NCBI GenBank assembly: GCA_040756055.1 | Contig: JBFLZR010000007.1 | Location: 93,766-157,765 of the forward strand | Source: Candidatus Zixiibacteriota bacterium | Lineage (GTDB): Bacteria > Zixibacteria > MSB-5A5 > GN15 > FEB-12 | DNA: 64,000 nt | Direction of reading: 5' to 3' | Part shown: in pieces, positions 1 through 27,358 of the stretch | How the letters are laid out: each line of letters begins with the position of its first letter | Position numbering within the stretch: the stretch's first letter is position 1 | Notes under the pieces: generated by a model | The model's input: only the letters and a program-made list of their open reading frames with translations | What the model was told of the DNA's origin: nothing | Databases searched by the model: none | Translations under genes and position numbers: made by a program

Positions 1-3000
1 TGACGACGTTCCCGGCTGGTATGACCATTGATGCCAACGGCCTGGTAAGCTGGACCCCGAACGATGTTGGTGACTTTGGTGTTACAATCGAAGCTTCCAA
101 CGCGTTTGGTACCGATGTCCAGAGCTTTACTATTGCTGTAGCTGGCATCGCTCCGATCATTACTTCGACACCGAACGAAAACGGTGTTAGGAATGAACTC
201 TATACTTATGATGTTGACGCCAGTGGTTACCCGGCCCCGACGTTCGCTTTGGCGACCGCGCCGGGTGGCATGACCATTGACGCTGTTTCCGGTTTGATCT
301 CGTGGACTCCCGCTGACCTTGGTGACTTCGCCGTTGTGGTCGAAGCCAGCAACGTCGCCGGTACGGATGTCCAGAGCTTCAGTATTAATGTGGTAGAAGG
401 TGACATCGCTCCGATTATCACTTCTACGCCGGTTACCAGCGTAACTGTCAACCAACTTTATTCATATGACGTACAGGCCAGTGGTAATCCCGCCCCGACG
501 TTTGCTCTCACTGTGGCTCCGGCCGGCATGACTATCAATGCCACTACCGGACTTATTCAGTGGACGCCGACCGTCGTTGGCGATTACGATGTAACCGTCG
601 TCGCTACCAACGGCGTTGCTCCTGATGCTGTTCAGAGCTTCACGATCACCGTTCTGGGTATTGCCCCGACGTTTACGTCGACTCCCATTACCACCGGCAC
701 CTATGGCGTAGCTTATAGCTATGATGCCGATGCCGATGGCATCCCGGCCCCGACATTCGCTTTGGCGACTGCTCCGGCCGGTATGACCATTGACGCTATC
801 AGTGGTCTGGTGAGCTGGACTCCGGATGATGTTGGTGATTTCGATGTCACAATCGAAGCCTCCAACGTCGCCGGTACCGCTGTCCAGAGCTTCAGCATAG
901 CGGTTGCCGGCATTGCCCCGAGCTTTACCTCGACGCCGGTCCTGACTGGTACCTATGGTGTGGCTTACAGCTATGACGCCGACGCTGCTGGTTACCCGGC
1001 TCCGACGTTCGCTCTGACGACCGCCCCGGCCGGCATGACCATTGACGCTATCAGCGGTCTGGTAAGCTGGACCCCGGACGATGTTGGCGACTTCGGTGTT
1101 ACTATCGAGGCTTCCAACGTTGCCGGTACTGCTGTCCAGAGCTTCACGATAGCGGTTGCCGGTATTGCTCCGAGCTTCACCTCGACGCCGATCACTTCCG
1201 GTACTTATGGTGTAGCTTACAGCTACGATGCCGACGCTGATGGTTACCCGGCTCCGACGTTCGCTCTGACGACCGCCCCGGCTGGCATGACCATTGATGC
1301 CAACGGTCTGGTAAGCTGGACCCCGGATGATGTTGGTGATTTCGGTGTTACAATCGAAGCTTCCAACGTTGCCGGTACTGCTGTCCAGAGCTTCACCATT
1401 GCCGTGGCTGGTATTGCTCCGACCTTTACTTCAACGCCGATCACGAATGCCGGCTTTGAAGTACTCTATACATACGATGCCGATGCTGATGGTTACCCGG
1501 CGCCGACGTTCGCTCTGACGACGTTCCCGGCTGGCATGACCATTGACGCTATCAGCGGTCTGGTAAGCTGGACGCCTGACGATGTTGGTGACTTCGCCGT
1601 AGTAATCGAAGCTGCCAACGCGTTTGGTACCGATGTCCAGAGCTTCACCGTCACCGTTGGCGGTATCGGTCCGGTCTTCACGTCGACACCGGTTCTGACC
1701 GGTACGTACGGCGTGGCGTACAGCTATGACGCTAATGCCAGTGGTTACCCGGTCCCGACATTCGCTTTGGCGACCGCTCCGGCCGGTATGACCATTGACG
1801 CTATCAGCGGTCTGGTAAGCTGGATCCCGGGCGATGTTGGTGATTTCGATGTCATCATCGAAGCCACTAACGACTTCGGCACGGCTGTCCAGAGTTTCAC
1901 CATCGCGGTTGGTGGCATTGCTCCGAGCTTCACCTCGACGCCGGTTCTGACTGGTGACTATGGTGTAGCTTACAGCTATGACGCCGATGCTGATGGTTAC
2001 CCGGCTCCGACGTTCGCTTTGACGACCGCCCCGGCTGGTATGACCATTGATGGCGCTGGTCTGGTAAGCTGGACTCCGGATGATGTTGGCGACTTTGATG
2101 TTACAATCGAAGCTTCCAACGTTGCCGGTACTGCTGTCCAGAGCTTCACGATAGCCGTTGCCGGTATTGCTCCGAGCTTCACCTCGACGCCGATTACTTC
2201 CGGTACTTATGGTGTAGCTTACAGCTACGATGCCGACGCTGATGGTTACCCGGCGCCGACGTTCGCTCTGACGACCGCCCCGGCTGGCATGACCATTGAT
2301 GCCAACGGTCTGGTAAGCTGGACCCCGGATGATGTTGGTGATTTCGGTGTTACAATCGAAGCTTCCAACGTTGCCGGTACTGCTGTCCAGAGCTTCACGA
2401 TAGCGGTGGCCGGTATTGCTCCGAGCTTCACCTCTTCGCCGGTTCTGACCGGTGACTATGGCGTGCTCTACACTTACGATGCCGACGCTGCTGGTTATCC
2501 GGCTCCGACGTTCGCTCTGACGACCGCCCCGGCTGGTATGACTATTGATGCTAACGGTCTGGTAAGCTGGACTCCGGATGATGTTGGTGACTTTGGTGTT
2601 ACCATCGAAGCTTCCAACGCTTACGGTACTGCTGTCCAGAGCTTTACCATCGCCGTGGCTGGTATTGCTCCGAGCTTCACCTCGACGGCTCCTCTCGGTG
2701 GCGTCGTTGGTGAGCTTTACACTTATGATGCTAATGCCGATGGATATCCGGCCCCGACGTTCGCTCTGACGACTTCACCTCTCGGTATGACAATCGATGC
2801 GGTGAGTGGTCTGATCAGCTGGACGCCTGATGCTGAAGGTCTTTATGATGTCGTTATCGAGGCTTCCAACGCCTTTGGCAGCGATGTTCAGAGCTTCACC
2901 ATCAACGTGGTTGCTGGCCCAGAGGCTCCTGTAATAACTTCGACTCCGTCGACCAGTGTTGTTGTCAACCAGCTTTACAGCTATGATGTGGAAGCTACCG

Positions 3001-5702
3001 GTAACCCGGGTCCGACGTTCGCTTTGAGCGTTGCTCCGGCCGGTATGACAATCAACGCTACGACCGGACTTATCGAGTGGACCCCAGGCACCGTTGGTGA
3101 CTTTGATGTTACCGTGGTAGCCAGCAACGGTGTCGATCCTGATGCTGTTCAGAGCTTCACGATCACTGTGCTGGGTATTGCTCCTGCGTTCACTTCGACA
3201 CCTGTTTTGACAGGTACTTATGGTATAGCTTACAGCTACGATGCTGATGCTGATGGTATCCCGGCTCCGACGTTCGCTTTGACGACCGCCCCGGCCGGCA
3301 TGGCTATCGACGCTATCAGTGGTCTGGTAAGCTGGACGCCTGATGATGTTGGTGACTTTGGTGTTACAATCGAAGCTTCCAACGCTTACGGCACCGATGT
3401 CCAGAGCTTCACGATAGCGGTTGCCGGTATCGCTCCGAGCTTTACCTCCTCGCCGGTTCTGACTGGTGACTATGGTGTAGCTTACAGCTATGACGCCGAC
3501 GCCGATGGTTATCCGGTTCCGACGTTCGCTCTGGCGACCGCCCCGGCTGGCATGACTATCGACGCTATCAGTGGTCTGGTAAGCTGGACTCCGGATGATG
3601 CTGGTGACTTTGATGTCATAATTGAAGCCACTAACTCCGCCGGAACCGCCACTCAGAGCTTCACCATCACGGTTGGTGGTATCGCTCCGAGCTTTACGTC
3701 CACTCCGATCACGAGCGGCACCTACGGTGTACTCTACACTTATGATGCCGATGCCTCTGGTTATCCGGCTCCGACCTTCGCTCTCTCGACCGCTCCGGCC
3801 GGCATGACCATTGACGCCGTGTCAGGTCTGATTTCCTGGACCCCGGATGATGCTGGTGATTTCGACGTCGTCATCGAAGCCGCTAACTCTTCCGGTACTG
3901 CTGTCCAGAGCTTCACCATCACGGTCGTTGGTATAGCCCCGAGCTTTACATCGACGCCGGTTACTGCCGGTACTTATGGTGTGCTCTACACTTACGATGC
4001 CGACGCTGATGGTTATCCGACCCCGACGTTCGCTCTGGCGACCGCCCCGGCTGGCATGACCATTGATGCTATCGGTCTGGTAAGCTGGACCCCGGACGAT
4101 GTTGGTGACTTCGCCGTTACAATCGAAGCTTCCAACGCCTATGGCACCGATGTCCAGAGCTTCACGATAGCCGTTGCCGGTATCGCTCCGAGCTTCACCT
4201 CGTCGCCGGTTCTGACCGGCACCTTTGGTGTTGCTTACACTTACGATGCCGACGCTGATGGTTACCCGGCCCCGACGCTCGCTCTGACGGCCGCCCCGGC
4301 TGGCATGACCATCGACGCTGCCGGCGTGGTAACCTGGACGCCTGCTGACGTTGGTGACTTTGATGTTACAATCGAAGCTTCCAACGCCTACGGCACTGCT
4401 GTCCAGAGCTTTACCATCACCGTTGGTGGTACTGTTCCGGTCATTTCGTCGACACCGATTCTTACCGGTGTTGCCGGTGAACTCTATGCATACGATGTAG
4501 ACGCTGATGGCTATCCCGAGGCTACGTTCGCTCTGACGACGTCGCCAGCCGGCATGACCATCGACGCTATCTCGGGTCTGATTTCGTGGACTCCTGCCGC
4601 TGCCGGCAGCTACGATGTGGTTGTCGTAGCGAGCAACTCCGCGGGCTCAGACGCCCAGAGCTTCACCATAGTGGTTGAGGCCGCTCCGGAAGCTCCGGTC
4701 ATCACTTCGACTCCTGTGACCAGCGCGGTTATCTTTGACTCGTACGCGTACGATGTTGAAGCCACTGGTTACCCGACGCCGACGTTTGCTCTGACCACGG
4801 CTCCGCTCGGCATGACCATTGACGCCGCGACCGGTCTCATTTCGTGGACCGCGGATGCTCTCGGCGACTTTGCGGTGACAGTTGTGGCCGGCAACGGTGT
4901 TGAACCCGACGCTGTCCAGAGCTTCACCATAACCGTTTCGGGTATCGCTCCCACCTTCACCTCTACTCCTGTGGTAGAAGGTACGGTGGACGAGCTGTAC
5001 TCGTACGATGCTGATGCCGATGGTTATCCGGAGCCAACATTCGCGCTGGCTTATGGCCCGGCGGGAATGACGATCGACGCGGCGACCGGCCTGATTGAGT
5101 GGACACCGACCGAAACCGGATCCTTTGACGTTACCATAGAAGCTATCAACGACTATGGCACTGCGACTCAGGAATTCACGATCACGGTATTCAGTCAATT
5201 CCAGCCCGTCACCTTCCTGGATCAGGATCCCATCTATCTTAAGGATGTGCAGGATAAGATCCTTGGCGTGATGCTTGCTGGATTCGACGTTAGCACTGTC
5301 GACGTTAGCTCGATACTCGTCAACTACGAGGTACCTCCGAAGGATACCCCGTATGACACGGTGTATGCCGAGTATCCGCTGCCGGTCTTGAAGATACCGG
5401 TTGGAGTCATGAGATTCATGTCCAACTGGAGACCTATTAAGACCACTGTTCAGGATACTTATGTCGTCAGCTTCACGCTGCTCGACGGTACTCCGGTCGA
5501 ACTCGTCGGCGATGTGAACATCGAGATTGTACCCGGTGACCTCACTCTTGACGGGATAGTCAATAACGACGATATATCGTTCATGGTCGACCTGCTGTGG
5601 AATCACGGTAAATATCCGACCTACGAAGAGTTGGCCGATATTGACGGAAACGGCAAGGTTGATCCGATAGACCTGCGCGTTCTGATAAAGCTGGTCTATT
5701 AG
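1..5702 (+). CDS. Giant Ig-like repeat (He_PIG) surface protein with C-terminal dockerin, 5' end missing
   Basis: The reading frame is open from the first bases of the window, so the N-terminus and any signal peptide lie upstream. About 1,900 residues are visible. They form one partial and 20 complete tandem modules of about 83 residues, each built as xAPxFTSTP, then YxYDADADGYPAPTFAL, then PAGMTIDA, GLVSWTP and VQSFTIAV. This is the putative Ig/cadherin-like He_PIG pattern found in bacterial extracellular adhesins. From 5199 to 5534 a non-repeat module of about 110 residues follows, which recurs in the next three genes. The last 55 residues are a dockerin type I pair of calcium loops (DLTLDGIVNNDD and DIDGNGKVDPID). 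The protein is probably exported and surface-associated; ligand and partner are unknown. Some modules are almost identical at DNA level, a sign of recent internal duplication. Domain assignment is confident, function is inferred. Confidence 0.9.
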   Translation, partial: TTFPAGMTIDANGLVSWTPNDVGDFGVTIEASNAFGTDVQSFTIAVAGIAPIITSTPNENGVRNELYTYDVDASGYPAPTFALATAPGGMTIDAVSGLISWTPADLGDFAVVVEASNVAGTDVQSFSINVVEGDIAPIITSTPVTSVTVNQLYSYDVQASGNPAPTFALTVAPAGMTINATTGLIQWTPTVVGDYDVTVVATNGVAPDAVQSFTITVLGIAPTFTSTPITTGTYGVAYSYDADADGIPAPTFALATAPAGMTIDAISGLVSWTPDDVGDFDVTIEASNVAGTAVQSFSIAVAGIAPSFTSTPVLTGTYGVAYSYDADAAGYPAPTFALTTAPAGMTIDAISGLVSWTPDDVGDFGVTIEASNVAGTAVQSFTIAVAGIAPSFTSTPITSGTYGVAYSYDADADGYPAPTFALTTAPAGMTIDANGLVSWTPDDVGDFGVTIEASNVAGTAVQSFTIAVAGIAPTFTSTPITNAGFEVLYTYDADADGYPAPTFALTTFPAGMTIDAISGLVSWTPDDVGDFAVVIEAANAFGTDVQSFTVTVGGIGPVFTSTPVLTGTYGVAYSYDANASGYPVPTFALATAPAGMTIDAISGLVSWIPGDVGDFDVIIEATNDFGTAVQSFTIAVGGIAPSFTSTPVLTGDYGVAYSYDADADGYPAPTFALTTAPAGMTIDGAGLVSWTPDDVGDFDVTIEASNVAGTAVQSFTIAVAGIAPSFTSTPITSGTYGVAYSYDADADGYPAPTFALTTAPAGMTIDANGLVSWTPDDVGDFGVTIEASNVAGTAVQSFTIAVAGIAPSFTSSPVLTGDYGVLYTYDADAAGYPAPTFALTTAPAGMTIDANGLVSWTPDDVGDFGVTIEASNAYGTAVQSFTIAVAGIAPSFTSTAPLGGVVGELYTYDANADGYPAPTFALTTSPLGMTIDAVSGLISWTPDAEGLYDVVIEASNAFGSDVQSFTINVVAGPEAPVITSTPSTSVVVNQLYSYDVEATGNPGPTFALSVAPAGMTINATTGLIEWTPGTVGDFDVTVVASNGVDPDAVQSFTITVLGIAPAFTSTPVLTGTYGIAYSYDADADGIPAPTFALTTAPAGMAIDAISGLVSWTPDDVGDFGVTIEASNAYGTDVQSFTIAVAGIAPSFTSSPVLTGDYGVAYSYDADADGYPVPTFALATAPAGMTIDAISGLVSWTPDDAGDFDVIIEATNSAGTATQSFTITVGGIAPSFTSTPITSGTYGVLYTYDADASGYPAPTFALSTAPAGMTIDAVSGLISWTPDDAGDFDVVIEAANSSGTAVQSFTITVVGIAPSFTSTPVTAGTYGVLYTYDADADGYPTPTFALATAPAGMTIDAIGLVSWTPDDVGDFAVTIEASNAYGTDVQSFTIAVAGIAPSFTSSPVLTGTFGVAYTYDADADGYPAPTLALTAAPAGMTIDAAGVVTWTPADVGDFDVTIEASNAYGTAVQSFTITVGGTVPVISSTPILTGVAGELYAYDVDADGYPEATFALTTSPAGMTIDAISGLISWTPAAAGSYDVVVVASNSAGSDAQSFTIVVEAAPEAPVITSTPVTSAVIFDSYAYDVEATGYPTPTFALTTAPLGMTIDAATGLISWTADALGDFAVTVVAGNGVEPDAVQSFTITVSGIAPTFTSTPVVEGTVDELYSYDADADGYPEPTFALAYGPAGMTIDAATGLIEWTPTETGSFDVTIEAINDYGTATQEFTITVFSQFQPVTFLDQDPIYLKDVQDKILGVMLAGFDVSTVDVSSILVNYEVPPKDTPYDTVYAEYPLPVLKIPVGVMRFMSNWRPIKTTVQDTYVVSFTLLDGTPVELVGDVNIEIVPGDLTLDGIVNNDDISFMVDLLWNHGKYPTYEELADIDGNGKVDPIDLRVLIKLVY
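1110..1396 (+). repeat. Near-identical module tract, copy 1 (partner 2112-2398)
   Basis: About 287 bp spanning the end of one Ig-like module and most of the next recur exactly 1002 bp downstream, four modules later, with only a handful of base differences by eye. The two complete modules encode the same protein sequence. Other modules of the gene differ much more at synonymous sites, so this pair reflects recent duplication or gene conversion. Confidence 0.8.
2112..2398 (+). repeat. Near-identical module tract, copy 2 (partner 1110-1396)
   Basis: Second copy of the tract at 1110-1396. The match ends sharply near 2398, where the following codons differ (gcttcac followed by gatagcg here, by cattgcc in copy 1). 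Confidence 0.8.
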
Positions 5703-6094: not shown

Positions 6095-9000
6095 ATGAGA
6101 GCATTTGCCCTCACACTCATCGTTGCCCTAGTCCTGGTGTTGCCCGGTACCATACTTGGTCAGGCAATTTCGCTTGATCATGTCGATGGACTTAACGCCA
6201 GCGGCGAGATTATCCCCGGTGAAGTAGTTACATTCTATATCCGCTTGACCAACGGGCCATTGGCCCAGTCGGTTATCAGCAACGGATATCGGGTGTATTC
6301 TCCAGACGGTGCTACCTGGAGCCCACTGGTGGGAACACTCAATCCAATTTATCCATGGGATATGGATCCGTTTGTAATGTTTCCGCCTTACTTCGACCTG
6401 GGAATGTACGTTAACGTCTTCTCCAATGGATTAGTCTCTGACACCATCGGCTTTGGCGGCGCCGCGGGCATGTACGGCACCGGCCTTCCGGCCAACTTCG
6501 ATGCCGTCGGGTACTGGATTACCATGGGCGCGGTTGATATCGCCCACGCCGGTAAAACCATCGTACTCGACTCAGCCTGGTACCCGCCGGCCGGTCGCTG
6601 GGTCTGGGCCACCGTGGCCGAGAATGTCGCCTGGGATGGCCCGCACACCTTCCCGATTCACAGTGATGAACCCATAGGCGAAGCCCCGGTGATAACTTCA
6701 ACGCCGGTTACCTCAGCCACGTACGGTGCAGCCTACACCTATGATGTTGAGGCTACCGGCGACCCGGCTCCGACGTTCGCTTTGACAACGGCTCCGGCAG
6801 GCATGACCATTGATGCTGCCACCGGCGTCATTTCCTGGACTCCGGATGTTGTCGGTGACATCGATGTCGTAGTAGAGGCCTCGAACACCGAAGGTACTGA
6901 TACACAGGCCTTCACTATCGCTGTGGCTGGTATCGTTCCGGCCTTCACCTCGACTCCGGTTACTACCGGTACTTACGGTGTGGCTTACAGCTATGATGCT
7001 AACGTGAGTGGTTACCCGGCCCCGACGTTCGCTCTGACGACTGCCCCGGCAGGAATGATCATTAACGGCACGACCGGTCTGATTTCCTGGACACCCGATG
7101 TTGTCGGTGATGTTCCGGTAGTCGTAGAAGCCTCGAACGTAGCCGGTACTGCTGTCCAGAGCTTCAGTATCTCCGTGGCCGGTATCGCTCCGGCCTTCAC
7201 CTCGACTCCGGTTACTACCGGTACTTACGGTGTGGCTTACAGCTATGATGCCGACGCCTCTGGTTACCCGGCCCCGACGTTTGCTCTGACGACCGCCCCG
7301 GCCGGCATGACCATTGACGCCGCTTCCGGCCTGGTAAGCTGGACTCCGGACGTCGTTGGTGATGTCGCGGTTGTCCTCGAAGCTTCCAACGCTTATGGCT
7401 CCGATGCCCAGACCTTCACCATCACGGTTGGCGGTATTGCTCCGAGCATCACCTCGTTACCGTGTGAGAATGCCCAATACGGTGTGCCTTACACTTGTGA
7501 TGTAGACGCTGATGGCTATCCGGCCCCGACGTTCGCTCTGACGACCGCCCCGGCCGGCATGACCATTGACGCTGCCAGTGGCCTGATCTCTTGGACCCCG
7601 GACCTTATCGGCGACGTTCTGGTAGTCGTAGAAGCCTCCAACGGTTACGGCTCCGATGTTCAGAACTTCACGATTGCGGTGGCTGGTATCACTCCAAGCT
7701 TCACCTCGACCCCGGTCCTGACTGGTACCTATGGTGTTGCTTACAGCTACGATGCCAATGCTGATGGTTATCCGGCCCCGACGTTCGCTCTGACGACCGC
7801 CCCGGCTGGTATGACCGTTGACGCCGCGTCCGGTCTGGTAAGCTGGACCCCGGATGATGTTGGTGACTTCGCGGTTGTAATCGAAGCTGCTAACGCGTTT
7901 GGTACCGACGTCCAGAGCTTTACCATCACGGTTACTGGTATTGCTCCGAGCTTCACCTCGACGGCTCCTCTCGGTGGCGTTGTCGGTGAACTCTACACTT
8001 ATGATGCTAATGCCGACGGTTACCCGGCCCCGACGTTCGCTCTGACGACCGCCCCGGCCAGCATGACCATAGATGCTGTTTCGGGTCTAATCGGGTGGAC
8101 TCCCGCCGCAGCTGGCGACTATGACGTGGTAGTCGAAGCCGCCAACGCTTTTGGCTCTGACGTACAGAGCTTCACGATCGGCGTGGTTGACGCTCCCGAA
8201 GCCCCGCTTATTACTTCAACGCCGGTGACCGGTGTTACCGTGAACCAGCTTTACACCTACGATGTGGAAGCTACCGGTAATCCGGCCCCGACGTTCGCTC
8301 TGACGACCGCTCCGGCCGGCATGACGATTAATGCCACCAGCGGTTTGATTTCGTGGACACCCACCATGGTTGGCGATTACGGTGTAACAGTCGTCGCCAG
8401 CAACGATGTGGAACCCGATGCCGTTCAGAGCTTCACGATTACCGTGGTTGGCATTGCCCCGAGCTTTACTTCGACCCCGGTTACCAGTGTGGCCTACGGC
8501 GCTGCTTACAGCTATGACGCCGATGCCGATGGTATCCCGGCTCCGACGTTTGCTCTGACAACCGCTCCGGCCGGCATGACTATTGATGCCGTCAGCGGCT
8601 TGATCGAGTGGACAGCCGACTTTGCCGGTGATGTCGACGTGGTCATTGAGGCTTCCAACGCTTTTGGTAGCGATGTCCAAAGCTTCAAGATTTCCGTCCT
8701 CGGCGCCGCTCCGTCATTCACTTCCACGCCGATTACTATCGGTACTTACGGCGTGGCTTACAGCTATGATGCTGATGCCGATGGTATCCCGGCTCCGACG
8801 TTCGCTCTGACGACCGCTCCGGCCGGTATGACTATCGACGCTGCGACTGGCCTGGTCGCCTGGACACCGGATGATGTTGGAGATTTCGGTGTTGTCATCG
8901 AAGCTTCCAACGCTTTCGGAACCGATGTCCAGAGCTTCAGCATAGCTGTTGCTGGTATTGCTCCGGTGATTACCACAACTCCTACCACCACAGGCGTGGT

Positions 9001-10969
9001 TGGCGAGTTGTATTACTATGACGCCGATGCTACCGGTTACCCGGCCCCGACCTGGTCAGGTGATGGTAACATCGATCCGGTTACCGGCGAGGTTTCCTTT
9101 ACGCCGACAGAACCCGGCGACTATATCCTTTCCATTACGGCTACCAACGCCTATGGCTCTGACACTCAGGGTTGGACGGTCACGGTCGCTGCTGGTCCCG
9201 AGGCTCCGGTTATCACCTCGACCCCGGTTACCACAGTTGGTATTTATGAACTTTATTCTTATAACGTCGATGCTACCGGTAATCCGGCCCCGACGTTCGC
9301 TCTGACGACCGCTCCGGCCGGCATGACCATTGATGCCGCCAGCGGCTTGATTTCGTGGACACCCGGAGCTCTTGGTGATTACGACGTAACCGTCGTCGCC
9401 AGCAACGGTGTGGATCCCGACGCTGTTCAGAGCTTCACGATCACGGTTTCGGGTGTGGCTCCGAGCTTCACCTCGACCCCGGTTACCTCCGGTACCTACG
9501 GCGTGGCTTACAGCTATGACGCTGATGCCGATGGTATCCCGGCTCCGACGTTCGCTCTGACGACCGCTCCGGCCGGTATGACCATTGACGCCGCGTCCGG
9601 TCTGGTTGCCTGGACCCCGGATGATGTTGGTGATTTCGGTGTAGTTATCGAAGCCTCCAACGCCTTCGGAACCGACGTCCAGAGCTTCACTATCGCAGTT
9701 GTCGGTATCGCTCCGGTGATCACGACGACTCCGCCCAGCGCAGGGGTGGTTGGCGAGCTGTATTACTATGATGCTGATGCTACCGGTTACCCGGCCCCGA
9801 CATGGTCCGGTGGAGACATAGACCCGGTCACCGGTGTCCTGCAATTTGTCCCGACCGTGCCCGGTGACTTTAGCATCACCATCACGGCCAGCAACGACTA
9901 CGGTTCTGACACCCAGAGTTGGAACCTCACCGTGGCCCCGGCTACCGAGGCTCCGGTTATCACCTCGACTCCTGTGACCAGCGCCGTTATATTTGACGCG
10001 TATGCTTACGATGTCGAGGCCACTGGCTATCCGACTCCGACGTTCGCTCTCTCAACCGCTCCGGCCGGCATGACTATCGATGCCGCCAGCGGCTTGATCG
10101 GGTGGACCCCGGACGCTCTGGGTGACTTCGACGTGATAGTCGTTGCCTCCAACGGTGTCGATCCCGACGCTGTTCAGTCGTTCACGATCACCGTTATCGG
10201 CATCGCTCCTGCATTTACTTCGATGCCGGTCACTGGTGTGACAGTTAACACGCTGTACAGCTACGATGCCGATGCCGATGGTTATCCGGCTCCGACGTTT
10301 GCCCTGATCACGGCCCCGGCCGGCATGACTATCGATGCCGCTACCGGCCTGCTCGAGTGGACCCCGGATGTTACAGGAACCTATGATGTCGAGATCGAAG
10401 CCACTAACGACTTTGGTGTCGCCACGCAGGCCTTCACCATCACGGTTCACGACGAGTTCCAGCCGGTCACATTCCTCGAGCACGATCCGCTCTTTATCAA
10501 CTCCGATATTATCGATCAGACTGTGGGAGTGATTCTGGCCGGATTCGATGTCTCGCAGGTCGATATATCATCGATACTGATCATGGGCATGGTGGTTCCG
10601 GAACACGATCCGCCTTACATGACCTCCTGGACCGGATATACCGAACCCGTTTTGTATATCCCGTTCTACACGAACCGTCTGTTGGCACACTACCGTCCTT
10701 ATAGGACCAGCATTCAGGATACCTACCTGGTGACCTTCCTGCTTCTGGATGGAACACCGGTTGAACTTCGTGGCGATATCAACATCGAAATCAACCCTGG
10801 CGACCTGAATGTCGATGGCATCGTGGACAACCAGGATATCGACCTGCTGGTCAACGTACTCTGGAACAACGGTCGCCGTGCCTCAGACTACGAAGCGCTT
10901 TATGATGTCGATGGTAACGGCAAGCTGGATCCGCTGGATCTGCGCGCCCTTATCAATATTGTGTACTAG
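6095..10969 (+). CDS. Giant Ig-like repeat (He_PIG) surface protein with N-terminal module and dockerin
   Basis: This gene encodes 1624 residues. A clear signal peptide (residues 1-22, ending in LGQ) follows a good ribosome-binding site. Residues about 24-198 form a module (ISLDHVDGLNASGEI, later GFGGAAGMYGTGLP and YPPAGRWVW) that is repeated only in the next gene. Fifteen He_PIG modules of about 83 residues follow; modules 10 and 13 are shorter variants with YYYDADATGYPAPTWSG. Then comes the shared C-terminal module (about 1455-1568, starting FQPVTFLEHDPLF) and a dockerin (1569-1624, loops DLNVDGIVDNQD and DVDGNGKLDPLD). The protein is inferred to be exported and to act as a long stalk or adhesin. 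It has its own promoter region and terminator, so it is probably monocistronic. Binding function cannot be read from the sequence. Confidence 0.93.
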   Translation: MRAFALTLIVALVLVLPGTILGQAISLDHVDGLNASGEIIPGEVVTFYIRLTNGPLAQSVISNGYRVYSPDGATWSPLVGTLNPIYPWDMDPFVMFPPYFDLGMYVNVFSNGLVSDTIGFGGAAGMYGTGLPANFDAVGYWITMGAVDIAHAGKTIVLDSAWYPPAGRWVWATVAENVAWDGPHTFPIHSDEPIGEAPVITSTPVTSATYGAAYTYDVEATGDPAPTFALTTAPAGMTIDAATGVISWTPDVVGDIDVVVEASNTEGTDTQAFTIAVAGIVPAFTSTPVTTGTYGVAYSYDANVSGYPAPTFALTTAPAGMIINGTTGLISWTPDVVGDVPVVVEASNVAGTAVQSFSISVAGIAPAFTSTPVTTGTYGVAYSYDADASGYPAPTFALTTAPAGMTIDAASGLVSWTPDVVGDVAVVLEASNAYGSDAQTFTITVGGIAPSITSLPCENAQYGVPYTCDVDADGYPAPTFALTTAPAGMTIDAASGLISWTPDLIGDVLVVVEASNGYGSDVQNFTIAVAGITPSFTSTPVLTGTYGVAYSYDANADGYPAPTFALTTAPAGMTVDAASGLVSWTPDDVGDFAVVIEAANAFGTDVQSFTITVTGIAPSFTSTAPLGGVVGELYTYDANADGYPAPTFALTTAPASMTIDAVSGLIGWTPAAAGDYDVVVEAANAFGSDVQSFTIGVVDAPEAPLITSTPVTGVTVNQLYTYDVEATGNPAPTFALTTAPAGMTINATSGLISWTPTMVGDYGVTVVASNDVEPDAVQSFTITVVGIAPSFTSTPVTSVAYGAAYSYDADADGIPAPTFALTTAPAGMTIDAVSGLIEWTADFAGDVDVVIEASNAFGSDVQSFKISVLGAAPSFTSTPITIGTYGVAYSYDADADGIPAPTFALTTAPAGMTIDAATGLVAWTPDDVGDFGVVIEASNAFGTDVQSFSIAVAGIAPVITTTPTTTGVVGELYYYDADATGYPAPTWSGDGNIDPVTGEVSFTPTEPGDYILSITATNAYGSDTQGWTVTVAAGPEAPVITSTPVTTVGIYELYSYNVDATGNPAPTFALTTAPAGMTIDAASGLISWTPGALGDYDVTVVASNGVDPDAVQSFTITVSGVAPSFTSTPVTSGTYGVAYSYDADADGIPAPTFALTTAPAGMTIDAASGLVAWTPDDVGDFGVVIEASNAFGTDVQSFTIAVVGIAPVITTTPPSAGVVGELYYYDADATGYPAPTWSGGDIDPVTGVLQFVPTVPGDFSITITASNDYGSDTQSWNLTVAPATEAPVITSTPVTSAVIFDAYAYDVEATGYPTPTFALSTAPAGMTIDAASGLIGWTPDALGDFDVIVVASNGVDPDAVQSFTITVIGIAPAFTSMPVTGVTVNTLYSYDADADGYPAPTFALITAPAGMTIDAATGLLEWTPDVTGTYDVEIEATNDFGVATQAFTITVHDEFQPVTFLEHDPLFINSDIIDQTVGVILAGFDVSQVDISSILIMGMVVPEHDPPYMTSWTGYTEPVLYIPFYTNRLLAHYRPYRTSIQDTYLVTFLLLDGTPVELRGDINIEINPGDLNVDGIVDNQDIDLLVNVLWNNGRRASDYEALYDVDGNGKLDPLDLRALINIVY

Positions 10970-11105: not shown

Positions 11106-11134
11106 TTGACAAACCGCTCACTCGTGGTTATATT
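11106..11134 (+). promoter_or_regulatory. Sigma70-like promoter of the third Ig-like gene
   Basis: TTGACA (11106-11111), a 17-bp spacer and TATATT (11129-11134). The predicted start near 11141 leaves a leader of about 195 nt before the ATG at 11335. Confidence 0.8.
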
Positions 11135-11138
11135 TACC

Positions 11139-11334
11139 CAGTACGTCAACCCTCACCTCTGGCGTACTGCTATTACTGATTAAGTTACATCGCGTAAAAC
11201 CCCGGGGAGCGGGAACAGGTTCAAGAGGACTTCATTTGTTTTGCTTGCCCTCCGGGAGTAACGCAGCAAGTTAGAGTTTGAGAGATACCAATTACAACCC
11301 ATTCAACTTTTCAACACTTTGTGAGGGAGTAACT
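11139..11334 (+). other. Long leader with 5' hairpin
   Basis: The leader begins with a 9-bp hairpin: CAGTACGTC at 11139-11147 pairs with GGCGTACTG at 11161-11169 (one G-T pair). Further down is a GC-rich stretch with the self-complementary CCCCGGGG (about 11201-11208) and a partly matching CTCCGGGAG (about 11251-11259). The region ends in a strong ribosome-binding site (GAGGGAGTAACT). No known riboswitch consensus was recognised. Confidence 0.45.
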
Positions 11335-13422
11335 ATGAGACTAACAGCAGTCTTGCTCAGCGTTGGTCTGATACTGTTCTCATTCGGCACTGTTTTGGGT
11401 CAGTCGATTACCATCGACCATGTCGACGGCCTCAATGCCTCGGGTGAGATCGAACAGGGAGCTACGCTTACCGTTTACATGCGCCTGACAGGCGATGCTA
11501 ATGCGCATTATGTCATATCGAACGGCTTCCGTGTCTACGGTAACGATCTGAACTGGGGCTCACTCAGCGGTAAGCTGAATCCCGCCTACAAGTGGGATCT
11601 GAGCTTCGGTTTCCCGTGCTTTTTTGACCTCGGAATGTACATCAACGTATTCTCCACCGGATCGGTCGCTGACACCATCGGTTTCGGTGGTGCAGCCGGT
11701 ATGTTTGGTACCGGACTTCCGGCCGGATTTGATGATATTGGGTACTGGATCAACCTCGGACCGGTGACCGGCGGCGGCGATTTCCTCTATATCGACTCGT
11801 CGTTCTACCCGCCGGCTGGCCGCTGGGTATGGGATATCGTCGGTGAAAACGTTGCCTGGGGCGGCCCGTATGCTTTCCCGATGGCCATAGAGTGCGAACC
11901 CGCTGTGTTCACCTCGACCCCGATCACCGAGGGCGAAGTCGGCACGGAGTATGTCTATGACGTCAACGCCACAGGTAACCCGGCTCCGGAATTCTCTCTG
12001 ACCGTGTTCCCGGAAGGTATGGCTATTGACCCGATGACCGGCGTCATTACTTTCACACCTACCGCCGCCGGCGACTACGCCGTAACAGTTGTGGCCAGCA
12101 ACGCCTGCAGTGCGCCCACTCAGGAATTTGTCATCCACGTTCCCGAACCGCCAGTGGCCCCCGTGATTACATCCACTCCGATTCCTAATGGCGTGGTCAA
12201 TTCGGTATACACCTACGATGTCAACGCTACCGGCAACCCGGTCCCGACATATGCCCTGACGGTCTTCCCGGACGGCATGGTGATCGTTGCTGAAACCGGC
12301 GCTATTACCTGGACTCCCACCGCCACCGGTGACTATGACGTAACAGTTGTGGCCTCCAACGGTGTCGTGCCGGACGCTGTCCAGAGTTTCGTTATTACCG
12401 TCACTCCGGAACTCGTTTCGCCGACTATCGTAACCACTCCCGTGACCGATGGTCAGGTCGGCGAGGCTTATTACTATGACGTCGACGCTACCGGATATCC
12501 GGAACCGACCTTCACTCTCACCACCGCTCCGGGCGGGATGACCATCGACGGGTTCACCGGTGAAATTAACTGGACTCCGACTGCCGCTGGTGATTTCAGT
12601 GTTACCGTGCGCGCCGCCAACGGTGTGTCTCCGGCCGCTACCCAGAGCTTCGTCATCGCCGTGGTCCCGGCTTTCGCCGCCCCGGTGATTACTTCGACTC
12701 CCGTTCTCGAGGGCGCCGAGGGTGACCCGTACTACTACGATGTCAACGCTACCGGCTACCCGGCTGCGACCTTCACCCTGACCGTCTTCCCGGATGGCAT
12801 GACCATCAATGAAGCTACCGGCGAAATCAACTGGACTCCCACCGTTTTGGGTGACTATGACGTAACAGTTGTGGCCGCCAACGGTATCGAGCCCGATGCG
12901 GTCCAGAGCTTCGTGATCAGCGTGGCCGAGGGCTGTCCGGTAGTCATTACCTATCTCGAGCAGGATCCGATCATCCTCAAAGACCTGGCCGACAGAGTCC
13001 TCCGCGTCTACGTCGAGTGCGAAGATAACGCGCACGTCGATCTGAACACCGTGGTGGTACAGGGCAAAATTCCGCCGTATACCGCCGCCCGCATCGAGGG
13101 CGACCTCCTCGTGACCGATGTCTTTATTTTCCGCTTCCTCGCCGCCTGGAGACCGATTGCGGCCGATATCCAGTCACAGTACACGGTTGCCTACAACATG
13201 CTTGACGGCACGTTCGTGGAACTCTCCGGTGAGATGAACCTCCAGGTTTATCCCGGCGACCTGAATTTCGATGGCATTGAAGATGTTAACGATATCACTT
13301 TCCTGGTCGACTACATGTTCAGGGGCGGCGACGAACCGATGTTGCCGGAAGCTCTGGATGTGAACCGCGACGGTTACAACGATATCAGAGACCTTCGCGC
13401 TATCGTGGAAATCGTATACTAA
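11335..13422 (+). CDS. Ig-like repeat surface protein, short member, with dockerin
   Basis: I chose the ATG at 11335 because it follows GAGGGAGTAACT and starts a clean signal peptide (MRLTAVLLSVGLILFSFG, cut near LGQ). An upstream in-frame TTG at 11278 has no such support. The 695-residue protein is a short version of its upstream neighbour: N-terminal module (about 24-190, with HVDGLNASGEI, GFGGAAGMFGTGLP and YPPAGRWVW), four He_PIG modules, the shared C-terminal module (about 537-640, ITYLEQDPIILKDL to NLQVYP) and a dockerin with loops DLNFDGIEDVND and DVNRDGYNDIRD. Codon usage here favours C-ending codons more than in the two larger genes, suggesting it is not a recent copy of them. It is inferred to be exported; role unknown. 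Confidence 0.92.
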   Translation: MRLTAVLLSVGLILFSFGTVLGQSITIDHVDGLNASGEIEQGATLTVYMRLTGDANAHYVISNGFRVYGNDLNWGSLSGKLNPAYKWDLSFGFPCFFDLGMYINVFSTGSVADTIGFGGAAGMFGTGLPAGFDDIGYWINLGPVTGGGDFLYIDSSFYPPAGRWVWDIVGENVAWGGPYAFPMAIECEPAVFTSTPITEGEVGTEYVYDVNATGNPAPEFSLTVFPEGMAIDPMTGVITFTPTAAGDYAVTVVASNACSAPTQEFVIHVPEPPVAPVITSTPIPNGVVNSVYTYDVNATGNPVPTYALTVFPDGMVIVAETGAITWTPTATGDYDVTVVASNGVVPDAVQSFVITVTPELVSPTIVTTPVTDGQVGEAYYYDVDATGYPEPTFTLTTAPGGMTIDGFTGEINWTPTAAGDFSVTVRAANGVSPAATQSFVIAVVPAFAAPVITSTPVLEGAEGDPYYYDVNATGYPAATFTLTVFPDGMTINEATGEINWTPTVLGDYDVTVVAANGIEPDAVQSFVISVAEGCPVVITYLEQDPIILKDLADRVLRVYVECEDNAHVDLNTVVVQGKIPPYTAARIEGDLLVTDVFIFRFLAAWRPIAADIQSQYTVAYNMLDGTFVELSGEMNLQVYPGDLNFDGIEDVNDITFLVDYMFRGGDEPMLPEALDVNRDGYNDIRDLRAIVEIVY

Positions 13423-13460
13423 GTAGTCTTCTGACTATCCGAGTATAATTACTCTCGAAA

Positions 13461-13492
13461 AAACCCGCCCTCGAAATGGGCGGGTTTTTTTT
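13461..13492 (+). terminator. Intrinsic terminator
   Basis: A 10-bp stem (AAACCCGCCC at 13461-13470 with GGGCGGGTTT at 13478-13487) runs into a T tract. Confidence 0.92.
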
Positions 13493-13528: not shown

Positions 13529-13557
13529 TTGACAATATTGTCTATTTTAGGTATATT
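13529..13557 (+). promoter_or_regulatory. Sigma70-like promoter of the triple-module gene
   Basis: TTGACA (13529-13534), a 17-bp spacer and TATATT (13552-13557): the same hexamers and spacing as the promoter at 11106. Confidence 0.82.
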
Positions 13558-13628: not shown

Positions 13629-15260
13629 ATGAAAATAAAGCCAAGACTTATCCTGACCGCTCTCGGGTTGCTCCTTGCCGTTTCCGTTTTCGGCGAGGGT
13701 GAGCAATACCAGACTCGCGAAGAACCAAACACTCACCAGCACAAATATTCGAACCTTCAGACCTATCTTGAAGACGACCCAATCAGACTCGTCGACCTTG
13801 AGGACCGGATTCTGAAAGTCTACGTGCGCGGGGGAGACCTCGATGTCCGCGACATCGATCTCAGCACGGTGCTCGTTCAGGGGAAAATACCTCCCTATAC
13901 TGCGGCAAGAATCGAAGGCAACCAACTCGTAACCGATGTTTTCATTTTTCGCTTTCTGGCCGCCTGGCGTCCAATTTGCGAGGATATACAAGGAACCTAT
14001 TCCATATCATTCGATCTGAAAAACGAAGAACACATTACCCTCTACGGCGAGTTGCATCTCGATTACGTTCAGGGAGACGTTAATCTCGATGGTCTGGTGA
14101 ACGGGGACGATATCGCCTTCTTCGAAGACTATCTGTACAACAGTGGACCCGGGTCGATGCTGGAAGAAGCCCTAAATGTCAACTGCGACAGATATCTAAA
14201 CCTGGACGACCTCGAACTTCTCAAGCAGCTCGTCGCGGAGGCAGAGGAGTCCGAACCCAACCGCGAGAAACAAGGCTACGGCGACCCGCCAACCTACCTT
14301 GAACAGAACCCGATCGTCCTCAAAGACCTCACAGACAGGATCCTCAGGGTCTACGTGCGTGGCACCAATTTCGACATTCACGATATCGACCTCAGCACAG
14401 TTGTAACACAGGGGAAAATCCCGCCATATACCGAAGCCCGCATCGAGGGCGACCGAATGGTCACGGATGTTTTCATATTTCGTTTTCTGAGCGCCTGGCG
14501 ACCTATCGAAGATGATGTCCACAGTCGCTACACGGTCGAGTTTGATCTCAATTCGGGCGAGCATATTGTGCTTGATGGTACGGTGAACGTAAAGATTTAT
14601 CCGGGCGATTTGAATTTCGAAGAAGACGATTGTGAGATGTTATTTATGCTTTTGGAACTCGCCGAGCAGGGCGTTATCGACATAGATGTTGAAGAGCTGG
14701 AACGCATGCTCGAAGAGGCCGGTTGCTACGAAGAGGAAGAACCGCCGTATCGCCGCCGCGACCGCGATGGCAAGCCGTTTACCTATCTTGAAGAAGATCC
14801 TGTCACTCTGGTCAACCTGCCGGAGAAACTCCTCAAAGTGTATGTCCGCCGCGCGGATTATGCTCTTAAGGATATAGTACTGGAATCAGTGCTAATTAAC
14901 GGGAAAATTCCTCCACATACAGAGGCGTGGATTGAGGAAGACCGCCTGATAACAGATGTCCTCTTGATGCGCTTCATGACTTTCTGCCGGCCAATAGAAC
15001 AGGATGTCCACGCCGGCTACAGCGTCTCTTTCGATCTTACCAACGGAGAGCATGTTGACTTGTACGGTGAGGTCAACATAGAATATATAGAGGGAGATCT
15101 GAACCTCGATGGTACAGTCAATATAGAAGATATTGTCTTTATAATTGACTACCTTCACCACTCCGGACCGTCATGTGTCCTTGAGGAAATGCTCGATGTG
15201 GACAATGATGGCATTATCTGTGATAGGGATATACTTGCAGTGACTCAGATTGTCTACTAG
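13629..15260 (+). CDS. Exported protein with three copies of the shared C-terminal module and dockerins
   Basis: The ATG at 13629 is preferred because GGAGGG lies about 5 bases upstream; GTG at 13617 and ATG at 13626 are alternatives. The 543-residue protein has a signal peptide (MKIKPRLILTALGLLLAVSVFG) and no Ig modules. It has three copies of the module that ends the three preceding proteins, starting near residues 45, 221 and 385. Each copy reads TYLExxPxxL, a VYVRG-like strand, GKIPPYT or GKIPPHT, a TDVFIFRFL or TDVLLMRFM block and a RPI motif. Copies 1 and 3 are followed by a dockerin. After copy 2 the dockerin has decayed into an acidic, Glu-rich segment. The gene may encode a small scaffold or competitor for whatever the module binds; that is inference. 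It has its own promoter and terminator. Confidence 0.88.
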   Translation: MKIKPRLILTALGLLLAVSVFGEGEQYQTREEPNTHQHKYSNLQTYLEDDPIRLVDLEDRILKVYVRGGDLDVRDIDLSTVLVQGKIPPYTAARIEGNQLVTDVFIFRFLAAWRPICEDIQGTYSISFDLKNEEHITLYGELHLDYVQGDVNLDGLVNGDDIAFFEDYLYNSGPGSMLEEALNVNCDRYLNLDDLELLKQLVAEAEESEPNREKQGYGDPPTYLEQNPIVLKDLTDRILRVYVRGTNFDIHDIDLSTVVTQGKIPPYTEARIEGDRMVTDVFIFRFLSAWRPIEDDVHSRYTVEFDLNSGEHIVLDGTVNVKIYPGDLNFEEDDCEMLFMLLELAEQGVIDIDVEELERMLEEAGCYEEEEPPYRRRDRDGKPFTYLEEDPVTLVNLPEKLLKVYVRRADYALKDIVLESVLINGKIPPHTEAWIEEDRLITDVLLMRFMTFCRPIEQDVHAGYSVSFDLTNGEHVDLYGEVNIEYIEGDLNLDGTVNIEDIVFIIDYLHHSGPSCVLEEMLDVDNDGIICDRDILAVTQIVY

Positions 15261-15292
15261 ATCCTTGCCAGCAGCTTTGAATTCGACTACGC

Positions 15293-15326
15293 AGCCCGCC
15301 TTACAACAGAAGGCGGGCTTTGTTTA
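15293..15326 (+). terminator. Intrinsic terminator
   Basis: Stem AGCCCGCCTT (15293-15302) with AAGGCGGGCT (15310-15319), followed by TTGTTT. It separates the surface-protein array from tilS. Confidence 0.85.
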
Positions 15327-15375
15327 TGCCTCTCACCGCGAAATCCAACAAAATCAATCCAACCAACGATTTTAC

Positions 15376-15403
15376 TCGACGCGCGACCGCAAGTTGCTAT
15401 CTT
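15376..15403 (+). promoter_or_regulatory. Possible leaderless promoter of tilS
   Basis: TCGACG (15376-15381), a 16-bp spacer and TATCTT (15398-15403). The ATG begins 6 bases after the -10 hexamer and no ribosome-binding site is visible, so the transcript may start at or next to the start codon. The -35 match is weak. Confidence 0.45.
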
Positions 15404-15408
15404 AAAGC

Positions 15409-16797
15409 ATGACCTTCGCACACAAAGTAATCGAGACTATCGCCAGACACAGTCTGCTCGCTGAAGGCGACTCCGTGCTCGTGGCCCTCTCCGGCGGCCC
15501 GGACTCAGTGGCGCTGCTGCACATTCTCCATCAACTGGGCAAGAAACAGAAACTCAAGCTATACGCGATATATATCAATCACAATATCCGCAAGAAAGCC
15601 GCCAAAGAAGAAGAGCGGTTCTGCCGGGAGCTTTGCTCCAGACTCGATATCGAGCTATTTATCGTGTCCGAAGACATCCCGGCGCTCGCCAAATATTTGG
15701 GTAAAGGGGTCGAGGAGACCGGACGAGATTTCCGCTACGCTACCTTCGAAAATCTGGCCAAAGAAAACAAAATCGATAAAATCGCCCTTGGCCATCACGC
15801 CGACGACCGAGTGGAAACCGTTCTCTTCAGAATAATCAGAGGCACCGGCAAAACCGGTTTGGCCGGAATCCCGGTGAAACGCGACAGGGTTATCAGACCT
15901 CTGTATGAATTGACCAAGCAGGAGATACTCGATTATCTCAAAGAAAACAAACAGTCCTATTGTCTCGATGAATCCAATCGAAGCATCGAGTATGATCGAA
16001 ATTACATTCGCAACAAACTCCTCGTTGATATAAGGCACAACCTGAATCCCCAAATTGATAAGGCGCTGCTCACTCTCTCGGAAATCTCCGCCGAAGAGGA
16101 GAGTTTCCTTCAGGCCTTGGTGAAGCGCCGGACCGCTAGACTAATTCGCCGCACACCGGGCGACAAAATAGAGCTTGATTTAAGAGCATATAACACTTAT
16201 GATAAATGGTTCCGGCGGCGATTGCTAAGGCATTGTCTTACAGTGCTTTCCGGCGGCGAATCTGGATTTGACCGGATTGTTGTGGACCGACTCGATGATT
16301 TCTGCCGCCTGCGCGGAAAGAGCCTGTCGCTGCCTGATGGATTTCAGGCCGTGACAACTGACAATAAGCTTGTCCTTTACCGCCGCCATACCGATAGTTA
16401 TGATGTAGCCTTGAGCCCCGGTAAGACCAGCCAACTGACAACCTTGCGGCTCAATTTCCGTATGTCGGTATTAGATGCCGGCAAGGCCACGCTGAGTCGA
16501 AAGAGGCGTGCTGATAAGGTCTATCTGGCTCTTGAGAAGGTCACGCCGCCGATGGTTGTGCGAAATGTCAGGCCGGGAGACAAATTCCGACCCCTCGGTC
16601 TGAAAGGGACCAAAAAAGTCGGCGACTATTTGACAGACAGAAAAATCCACCGCGTTTTCAGAGATGAGATACCGGTGGTGTGCGATAAGAAGGGAATAGT
16701 GTGGTTGGTCGGTTTTGAGATTGCCGACCGGGTAAAAATTGAAAGCTCATCCGGAAAGGTTCTGAAAATTGAGTGCATTAAGCGATCAAAATCTTGA
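15409..16797 (+). CDS. tilS: tRNA(Ile)-lysidine synthase
   Basis: TilS attaches lysine to C34 of the tRNA(Ile) with CAU anticodon, using ATP, so that the tRNA reads AUA codons. The 462-residue protein has the N-type ATP pyrophosphatase P-loop SGGPDS near residue 28, followed by the conserved HNIRKKAAKEE segment, LGHHADDRVET and RGTGKTGLAGI. The C-terminal part (about 370-460) carries the TilS C-domain pattern VRPGDKFRPLGLKGTKKVGDYL. Length is normal for the family. The 3' end overlaps hpt by 29 bases, the classic tilS-hpt-ftsH arrangement. Confidence 0.97.
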   Translation: MTFAHKVIETIARHSLLAEGDSVLVALSGGPDSVALLHILHQLGKKQKLKLYAIYINHNIRKKAAKEEERFCRELCSRLDIELFIVSEDIPALAKYLGKGVEETGRDFRYATFENLAKENKIDKIALGHHADDRVETVLFRIIRGTGKTGLAGIPVKRDRVIRPLYELTKQEILDYLKENKQSYCLDESNRSIEYDRNYIRNKLLVDIRHNLNPQIDKALLTLSEISAEEESFLQALVKRRTARLIRRTPGDKIELDLRAYNTYDKWFRRRLLRHCLTVLSGGESGFDRIVVDRLDDFCRLRGKSLSLPDGFQAVTTDNKLVLYRRHTDSYDVALSPGKTSQLTTLRLNFRMSVLDAGKATLSRKRRADKVYLALEKVTPPMVVRNVRPGDKFRPLGLKGTKKVGDYLTDRKIHRVFRDEIPVVCDKKGIVWLVGFEIADRVKIESSSGKVLKIECIKRSKS

Positions 16798-21813: not shown

Positions 21814-22128
21814 ATTCTTTTGGCCTCCAGGCTGCGTCGAATTGTACTCCGCTGACTTATTATAAAAGACAGATTATCCTGACGTTCTAAAGATGTCTGG
21901 TGAGGGGGTAATTCAATCTGTCAGGTGCGCGGCACAACGGCAGACAACTGAACAGGCCTGGCGCCATCCGTCCGGAGGAGGTGGAAACCCCGGAAAAGCC
22001 GGTACGCCCGGAGTCCGCTCAAAGCAGACCCCTTAATTGAATTCAGACACCTTCTCGATACTTAAACTCGAGAAGAGTTTTATGACAAAACACAGGTTTG
22101 TTAACTGTCCTGTGCCTGATATCGTTGA
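21814..22128 (-). other. Intergenic region between SBBP paralogues B and A
   Basis: Read on the minus strand it holds a probable terminator of paralogue B (22085-22114), then about 200 bp with no recognised feature, then a TATAAT hexamer at 21859-21864 without a convincing -35 box, and the GGAGG ribosome-binding site of paralogue A. A short inverted repeat AAACTC/GAGTTT lies at 22064-22080. No gene is seen. Confidence 0.5.
22085..22114 (-). terminator. Probable terminator of SBBP paralogue B
   Basis: On the minus strand CACAGG and CCTGTG (22109-22114 and 22091-22096) form a hairpin followed by TTTTGTC. The stem is only 6 bp, so efficiency is uncertain. Confidence 0.5.
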
Positions 22129-24465: not shown

Positions 24466-24530
24466 GTAAAGAAACCTCCGGACGGAGTGCGTCTGATTAA
24501 GTATTTCGGGTATGTAAAAGGTTATGTATA

Positions 24531-24558
24531 AATATATGAATATACTGTGAAAAGTCAA
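24531..24558 (-). promoter_or_regulatory. Sigma70-like promoter of SBBP paralogue B
   Basis: On the minus strand TTGACT (24558-24553), a 16-bp spacer and TATATT (24536-24531). It supports the start at 24465. Confidence 0.7.
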
Positions 24559-24716
24559 CCTGATTCGCCGTGAGTGCACGTACCTCAGCAGCATCCTGCA
24601 AGTTGCCGTCAGACCATGGCTGGTCTTACGTAAATCGCTATTGGGCAACAGCATATGCGGCTTGCCCCTCATGGGCCCAACCCCCTTTCTTATTGCCTGT
24701 CGGAAGCTTGTTTGTC

Positions 24717-27080: not shown

Positions 27081-27126
27081 CTTACTGCTGTTGCCTCACT
27101 TTGGTGTTAGCCAACGCTGCAATTAA

Positions 27127-27155
27127 AGAATACTAAAATTGCCGCATTTTGTCAA
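27127..27155 (-). promoter_or_regulatory. Sigma70-like promoter of SBBP paralogue C
   Basis: On the minus strand TTGACA (27155-27150), a 17-bp spacer and TATTCT (27132-27127). Confidence 0.68.
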
Positions 27156-27219
27156 GAAATATCCCACCTGCCGCATCCGTTTTCCCTGACGAAGGCTGAG
27201 CAAGTGACAGTCCCCGTAT

Positions 27220-27286
27220 GTGAAGTATCGGTAGGATTCCGATCGGCCTTCACCCGACAAGTCTTGTCAATTCGGGGGCGAAAACA
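27220..27286 (-). other. Cluster of inverted repeats after SBBP paralogue D
   Basis: GTGAAG (27220-27225) pairs with CTTCAC (27248-27253), enclosing ATCGG (27227-27231) and CCGAT (27239-27243). Next to it is GACAAGTCTTGTC flanked by CCCGA and TCGGG. The elements lie between the stop of paralogue D and the promoter of paralogue C, so they may act as a 3'-end structure; there is no clean T tract. Confidence 0.45.
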
Positions 27287-27358
27287 TCCCCGGCCCCAAT
27301 GATTTTTCGAATGACACTGTGTACAAGATACGGGCTGGCCCACCGGTTGTGAATCAGG

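Follow-up and report, generated by a model that had tools for sequence, protein, structure and literature searches.

A secreted protein with three dockerin-type module copies and no N-domain in Candidatus Zixiibacteriota: a candidate cap, bridge or competitor for predicted cohesin-fold sockets

At the end of a gene cluster in a Candidatus Zixiibacteriota genome lies a gene whose product carries, three times over, the module with which its neighbours end, and the question was raised what such a protein would do beside them. The window, i.e. the whole stretch of 64,000 nucleotides analysed (contig JBFLZR010000007.1, positions 93,766 to 157,765), holds four proteins of the cluster, named p1 to p4 in gene order. 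The protein in question, p4, was read as a single open frame from ATG to stop codon. The genome is designated G000 and its congeners G001–G003; loci are given L-numbers. Coordinates of the features are collected in Table 1.

Table 1 Features of p4, its neighbours and the anchor gene pairs (positions in the window unless a locus is named)
Feature	Position	Strand	Evidence
p4, secreted cohesin-less protein, three module copies, 543 aa	13629..15260	+	open frame
Signal peptide, aa 1-22, lipobox cysteine absent	13629..13694	+	translation read by eye
Module 1 beta domain, aa 45-148	13761..14072	+	repeat comparison; AlphaFold2 pLDDT 94.0, pTM 0.82
Module 1 dockerin, aa 149-203, ligands 5/5 + 5/5	14073..14237	+	Pfam, structure search, ligand count
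Module 2 beta domain, aa 222-325	14292..14603	+	repeat comparison
Module 2 dockerin remnant, aa 326-369, acidic, both calcium loops gone	14604..14735	+	ligand count
Module 3 beta domain, aa 385-488	14781..15092	+	repeat comparison
Module 3 dockerin, aa 489-543, ligands 5/5 + 4/5	15093..15257	+	Pfam, ligand count
p1 3' part: He_PIG stalk, module 5208-5699	21..5702	+	domain search
p2: N-domain 6140-6670, He_PIG stalk, module 10466-10966	6095..10969	+	domain search
p3: N-domain 11380-11895, He_PIG repeats, module 12946-13419	11278..13422	+	domain search
Sigma-70-like promoter TTGACA-17-TATATT, upstream of p4	13529..13557	+	site scan
Identical hexamers and spacing, upstream of p3	11106-11134	+	site scan
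Interval p3 to p4: terminator-like hairpin and T run	13458..13492	+	by eye; hairpin not listed by scan
Terminator-like hairpin, 3' of p4	15293..15319	+	site scan
Anchor gene pair	L145 3721-4602, 4866-5813	-	signal peptide, N-domain, T9SS sorting domain
Anchor gene pair	L146 2846-3835, 4098-5030		signal peptide, N-domain, T9SS sorting domain
Anchor gene pair	L148 1692-2705, 2970-3926		signal peptide, N-domain, T9SS sorting domain

Each module of p4 consists of a beta domain of about 104 residues followed by a dockerin or, in module 2, by what is left of one. The three pairs of copies gave repeat scores of 365, 308 and 426, with a shuffle maximum of 63 (500 shuffles per pair), which bore out the first-pass annotation in its reading of three copies of the neighbours' C-terminal module. 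Using Pfam Dockerin_1 (cut-off 22.9 bits), the whole protein scored 44.0 bits with two passing stretches; module 1 by itself reached 21.7 bits, slightly below the cut-off. Two calcium loops of the type I dockerin kind were found in each of modules 1 and 3, with 10/10 and 9/10 ligand positions kept, respectively, and by Pfam match and ligand count p4 is thus a multi-dockerin protein with at least two dockerins in one polypeptide. Module 2 has lost both loops, retains two helix-like stretches, and holds 17 acidic residues and 1 basic residue in its dockerin remnant. The claim of two intact dockerins and one decayed into an acidic segment was therefore right by ligand counts, with the small caveat that the second loops are altered (that of dockerin 1 has asparagine in place of aspartate at position 1 and arginine in place of glycine at position 6).

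A high-confidence AlphaFold2 model of module 1 was subjected to structure search. Its predicted C-terminal half was aligned with 6kge_D over 61/61 residues (Z 10.1, rmsd 1.9, 36% identity), and this predicted fold is that of a type I dockerin. The beta half was modelled as an Ig/IPT-like sandwich with no clear relative, the best match being 3oky_A (Z 7.1, 87 aligned). As in X-dockerin dyads (CipA, ScaA), the beta module directly precedes the dockerin; no X module was among the structures listed for module 1 alone, and the module profile reached 2b59_B, 3kcp_A and 5g5d_B from position 86, ahead of the dockerin (about 102), as a weak overlap. At dockerin recognition positions 10–11, p4 has GD/LD and IE/DR versus VN/IR in most neighbours, and this difference may mean another partner. 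Integrin, plexin and pilin folds appeared at lower Z in the structure lists, both for module 1 and for the N-terminal domain of the neighbour g4.

The cluster was found to comprise nine tandem module genes, beginning with five small genes of L015, which lie upstream of the window, and continuing with p1, p2, p3 and, as the last, p4. All nine end in the beta-module plus dockerin, and eight also carry an N-terminal domain of about 170 aa (N-domain), p4 being the exception. With p4 as query, 13 matches were obtained in G000 at E ≤ 0.001, 11 of them in C7:86132-109022. An assembly gap of 100 N immediately before the window breaks p1, whose N-domain was read on the upstream side of the gap and whose module on the other. 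It is true, as the first-pass annotation had stressed, that p4 has no Ig stalk. This is not distinctive, however, and was rejected as the key feature, because the five upstream neighbours (L015 5530-12075) likewise lack He_PIG repeats and are filled by N-domain and module. The telling absence in p4 is that of the N-domain, present in the other eight cluster genes. In domain searches of p1–p4, neither glycoside hydrolases nor cellulose-binding modules were found, and a cellulosome was rejected for a cluster without either. A type IX secretion (T9SS) C-terminal sorting domain gave no match in p4, whose C-terminus is a dockerin, and such a tail is also absent from its window neighbours.

Directly after p4 lies tilS, and the two genes past it presumably encode a phosphoribosyltransferase and ftsH, judged by likeness to G002 products. 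Further downstream, a tandem set of four DUF7948 and SBBP-repeat proteins is encoded on the minus strand (19471-29746 of the window). Their C-termini are dockerin-like, one having passed the Dockerin_1 cut-off and two having matched more weakly; L048 has a similar gene in the corresponding position (14053-16380). Beside the cluster, on the minus strand of L015 (2-1606), a papain-like protease (GSCWAFA by eye) with a PKD-like part runs off the locus, and three tandem frames, each exactly 611 aa long, were seen upstream of the cluster on the minus strand of L014 (11827-13662, 13802-15637, 15771-17606). Exact 100-N runs, probably scaffold gaps, were located at L015 13667-13766, L045 9508-9607, L047 6587-6686 and L048 7296-7395; in several assemblies they fall inside repeat-rich genes and hide the gene ends.

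The flanking hairpins and the promoter-like site suggest that p4 has its own transcript, the site classes not being strongly enriched over shuffles: 14 promoter-like sites were found versus 7.4 expected and 6 terminator-like sites versus 8.2 expected, each weak as a class.

The N-domain was examined as a candidate receptor, using the neighbour g4, for which an AlphaFold2 model of middling quality was obtained (pLDDT 77.3, pTM 0.52). In the structure search its N-domain matched 4uyq_A (Z 12.7, rmsd 2.6, 136/143 aligned), and the first 18 rows were all cohesins, from which we infer that the N-domain probably adopts the cohesin fold, the usual receptor of dockerins. With the whole g4 model, Foldseek placed multimodular scaffoldin fragments at ranks 2–4, at an rmsd of about 22 over the whole chain; we take these to be the cohesin-X-dockerin end of CipA. 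Sequence methods do not tie the N-domain to cohesins. Pfam cohesin (PF00963) had no match in 16 N-domain members, hhalign against the order's cohesins returned a probability of about 2%, and N-domain and cohesin sequences scored at most 67 in pairwise comparison, no higher than the top value from 40 rounds of shuffling (67). Searched against PDB sequences, the N-domain profile gave four weak matches (one 'cellulosome anchoring protein cohesin region', two scaffolding protein A, one cellulose-binding protein), the best with E 0.0045 and covering only about 54 positions; this partial match is no evidence for a cohesin. A Pfam cohesin of G040 (L131) reads DSAFYPPAG where the N-domains read DSSFYPPAG, a possible bridge between the families; its profile match had E 4.5e-4 among 16 sequences, its pairwise score being no better than shuffles.

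Outside the cluster, G000 has two N-domain proteins in which the domain is joined only to a signal peptide and a T9SS sorting domain (TIGR04183 scores of 37.1 and 40.7 bits against a cut-off of 23). Such anchor pairs are also present in G001 and G002; in G003 one anchor was found, its tail lost in a gap. SprA was over cut-off in 4/4 genomes of the genus. Pfam cohesins were over cut-off in 72/80 genomes of the order versus 0/4 of this genus, and a canonical cohesin partner in the genome was accordingly rejected. Among the 16 top-ranked Pfam-cohesin loci listed, 15 end in a T9SS-type tail (14 QNYPNPFN and, by eye, 1 QNSPNPFN) and the other runs off its contig; five of the 16 encode 282-334 aa, resembling the N-domain anchors in length and layout. 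This parallel between the order's cohesins and the anchors is the strongest indirect sign, by analogy, pointing to the N-domain as the cohesin of the genus.

On these grounds p4 is read, at what we judge to be close to an even call, as a secreted multi-dockerin, cohesin-less protein that caps, bridges or competes for the cohesin-fold sockets of a T9SS-anchored surface scaffold. The socket would be the N-domain on the two T9SS-tailed proteins, held at the cell surface, and the eight clustered proteins would be links with both a socket (N-domain) and a plug (beta-module and dockerin), so that chains could grow outwards from the anchor. Having a full plug at each end, a loop-less plug between and no socket, p4 would terminate chains, link one socket to another or take sockets from its neighbours. 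Binding of dockerin to N-domain, and capping or cross-linking, are proposals drawn from the layout and the predicted folds. The reading is weakened by the failure of sequence methods to relate N-domain and cohesins, by the middling g4 model, by the differing recognition positions of p4 and by the absence of T9SS tails from p4 and its window neighbours. The first-pass annotation had proposed a scaffold, adaptor or competitor for the binding partner of the shared module. The anatomy of p4 agrees with a cap, a competitor or a cross-linker for that partner; it gives no support to a scaffold as strictly defined, which would carry many cohesins, as p4 holds dockerins only. The likely partner, overlooked there, is the cohesin-fold N-domain. 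A wider reading, possible but on the doubtful side, is that a fibre or lattice without enzymes assembles itself on the surface of these cells from divergent cohesin-fold sockets and beta-module-dockerin plugs. It would comprise T9SS-anchored sockets, links that differ greatly in length, and p4, which has several plugs but no socket and would end or cross-link chains; the order as a whole would use T9SS-anchored cohesins with dockerin clients.

The beta-module and dockerin could instead be no more than a means of attachment that takes the place of a T9SS tail, with the N-domain as passenger, e.g. an adhesin. In that case p4, a tail lacking its passenger, would fill the surface or compete for some unrecognised receptor. 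The same N-domain is indeed borne on both T9SS and dockerin tails, the module caps the C-termini of many unrelated proteins of the order (matches in 76/80 genomes at E 1e-8, dockerin-only matches included), and the SBBP-repeat proteins of the window bear dockerins as well. No other receptor candidate emerged, however, no Pfam cohesin passing the cut-off in the genus, and the N-domain, with its predicted cohesin fold, is doubled in two proteins (L047 7141-9264, L051 6229-7905) as sockets are. This alternative was considered rather unlikely.

Relatives of p4 were collected from the four genus genomes and from the order. Among 28 module-bearing proteins of the genus, 24 carry an N-domain (the two double ones included), one is hidden by a gap and three have none, namely p4, L048 9216-9851 and L047 6526-7113. 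The second of these is a stand-alone single-module gene of 211 aa in G002, at the same place as p4 (module gene to tilS interval); the third, also a module-only gene of G002, lies at the 3' end of that genome's other cluster, where an assembly gap cuts its dockerin. The tilS-adjacent genes of G001 and G003 still have the N-domain. The recurrence of such a gene in related genomes, which the first-pass annotation named as a check and whose absence would have refuted its idea, was thus seen in G002, where module-only genes stand beside module genes, but it is not general. Among the 30 of 57 tilS matches listed, a module gene lies directly upstream of tilS in 4/4 genus genomes versus 1/26 other loci, where it stands at the end of its contig; in a further two of the 26, no more than a weak dockerin match lies close by. 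Across the order, N-domain matches were obtained in 62/80 genomes at 1e-6, and the module is present in the records CP070756 and CP070674, both Candidatus Zixiibacteriota. The triple-module protein was found only in this genome, no other in-frame multi-copy module protein being among the matches listed for the 80 genomes of the order, and a scan of genome contigs with p4 as query returned no relatives.

In the module tree, copies cluster by genome, which makes conversion between paralogues or separate expansions likely; L048_9216 falls with the modules of its own genome (99/99), and the two module-only proteins may therefore have arisen separately. By eye, a two-residue insertion is common to p4 copies 1–3 and L048_9216 and absent in 24/25 other rows of the alignment, the remaining row having a longer, different insertion. 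Synteny and this insertion would favour strict orthology of p4 and L048_9216, against which stands the genome-wise tree.

That p4 is a drifting paralogue, which lost its N-domain, was triplicated and now decays in its dockerins with no special role, was held to be improbable. Such drift would account for the dockerin without both loops and the changed second loops of the other two, for the triple copy having been seen only in this genome and for 2/3 congeners having no module-only gene at the tilS locus. It is opposed by the intact frame of 543 codons with signal peptide and own promoter-like and terminator-like sites, by the syntenic single-module homologue in G002, and by the low dN versus dS between copies (beta domains of p4 copies and p3, frame intact, dN 0.30-0.39 versus dS 2.0-2.6), dS being saturated, not computable for copies 1 and 2, and a record of older history. 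Least probable of all, and only slightly credible, is binding of a glycan or envelope protein by the beta domain, with p4 as a trivalent binder: loss of one dockerin would then not matter, three beta domains are kept and the Ig/IPT-like sandwich is a common binding fold, but the fold match lies within the range of common arrangements, and in the order proteins read the dockerin follows the beta domain, suggesting a dyad in which the dockerin is the working part.

Proteins with several dockerins, and cohesin-dockerin systems outside cellulosomes, have already been described, and p4 is a variant of these. Cellulosome producers have multi-dockerin proteins, some without partner domain (PMC12484212, PMC4217186). 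Double-dockerins of Clostridium thermocellum such as Clo1313_0689 (PDB 8x39) belong here, with triple to septuple forms elsewhere. The structure 8x39 appears in the list for p4 module 1. Several dockerins per polypeptide are likewise found in p4; unlike those proteins, p4 has a beta module with each dockerin, has lost the middle calcium loops, is not part of a cellulosome, and comes from another phylum. Further papers describe a scaffoldin with a C-terminal surface-attachment domain in Candidatus Stygibacter (Cloacimonadota), a 'planctosome' adaptor (dockerin, HYR domain, cohesin) and ANME proteins (PMC8542988, PMC6461901, PMC9012536). These systems share with the present one cohesin and dockerin outside cellulose degradation, C-terminal-domain surface attachment and cohesin-dockerin adaptors. 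They differ from it in that here the predicted cohesin-fold socket is divergent and invisible to Pfam, the chain proteins bear long He_PIG stalks, the four window proteins hold no enzyme and one multi-dockerin member is socket-less. A literature search, which mostly covered journals open without subscription, returned no paper linking Zixibacteria with dockerin, cohesin or type IX secretion, and none linking Zixiibacteriota with dockerin.

If the proposed reading of p4 and its neighbours is true, a phylum known mostly from metagenomes would build its outer surface by cohesin-dockerin chemistry with a type IX secretion anchor. Its socket, invisible to sequence searches, would be the receptor for the numerous dockerins that such genomes encode without a known partner, and would provide a new plug-socket pair for protein engineering.
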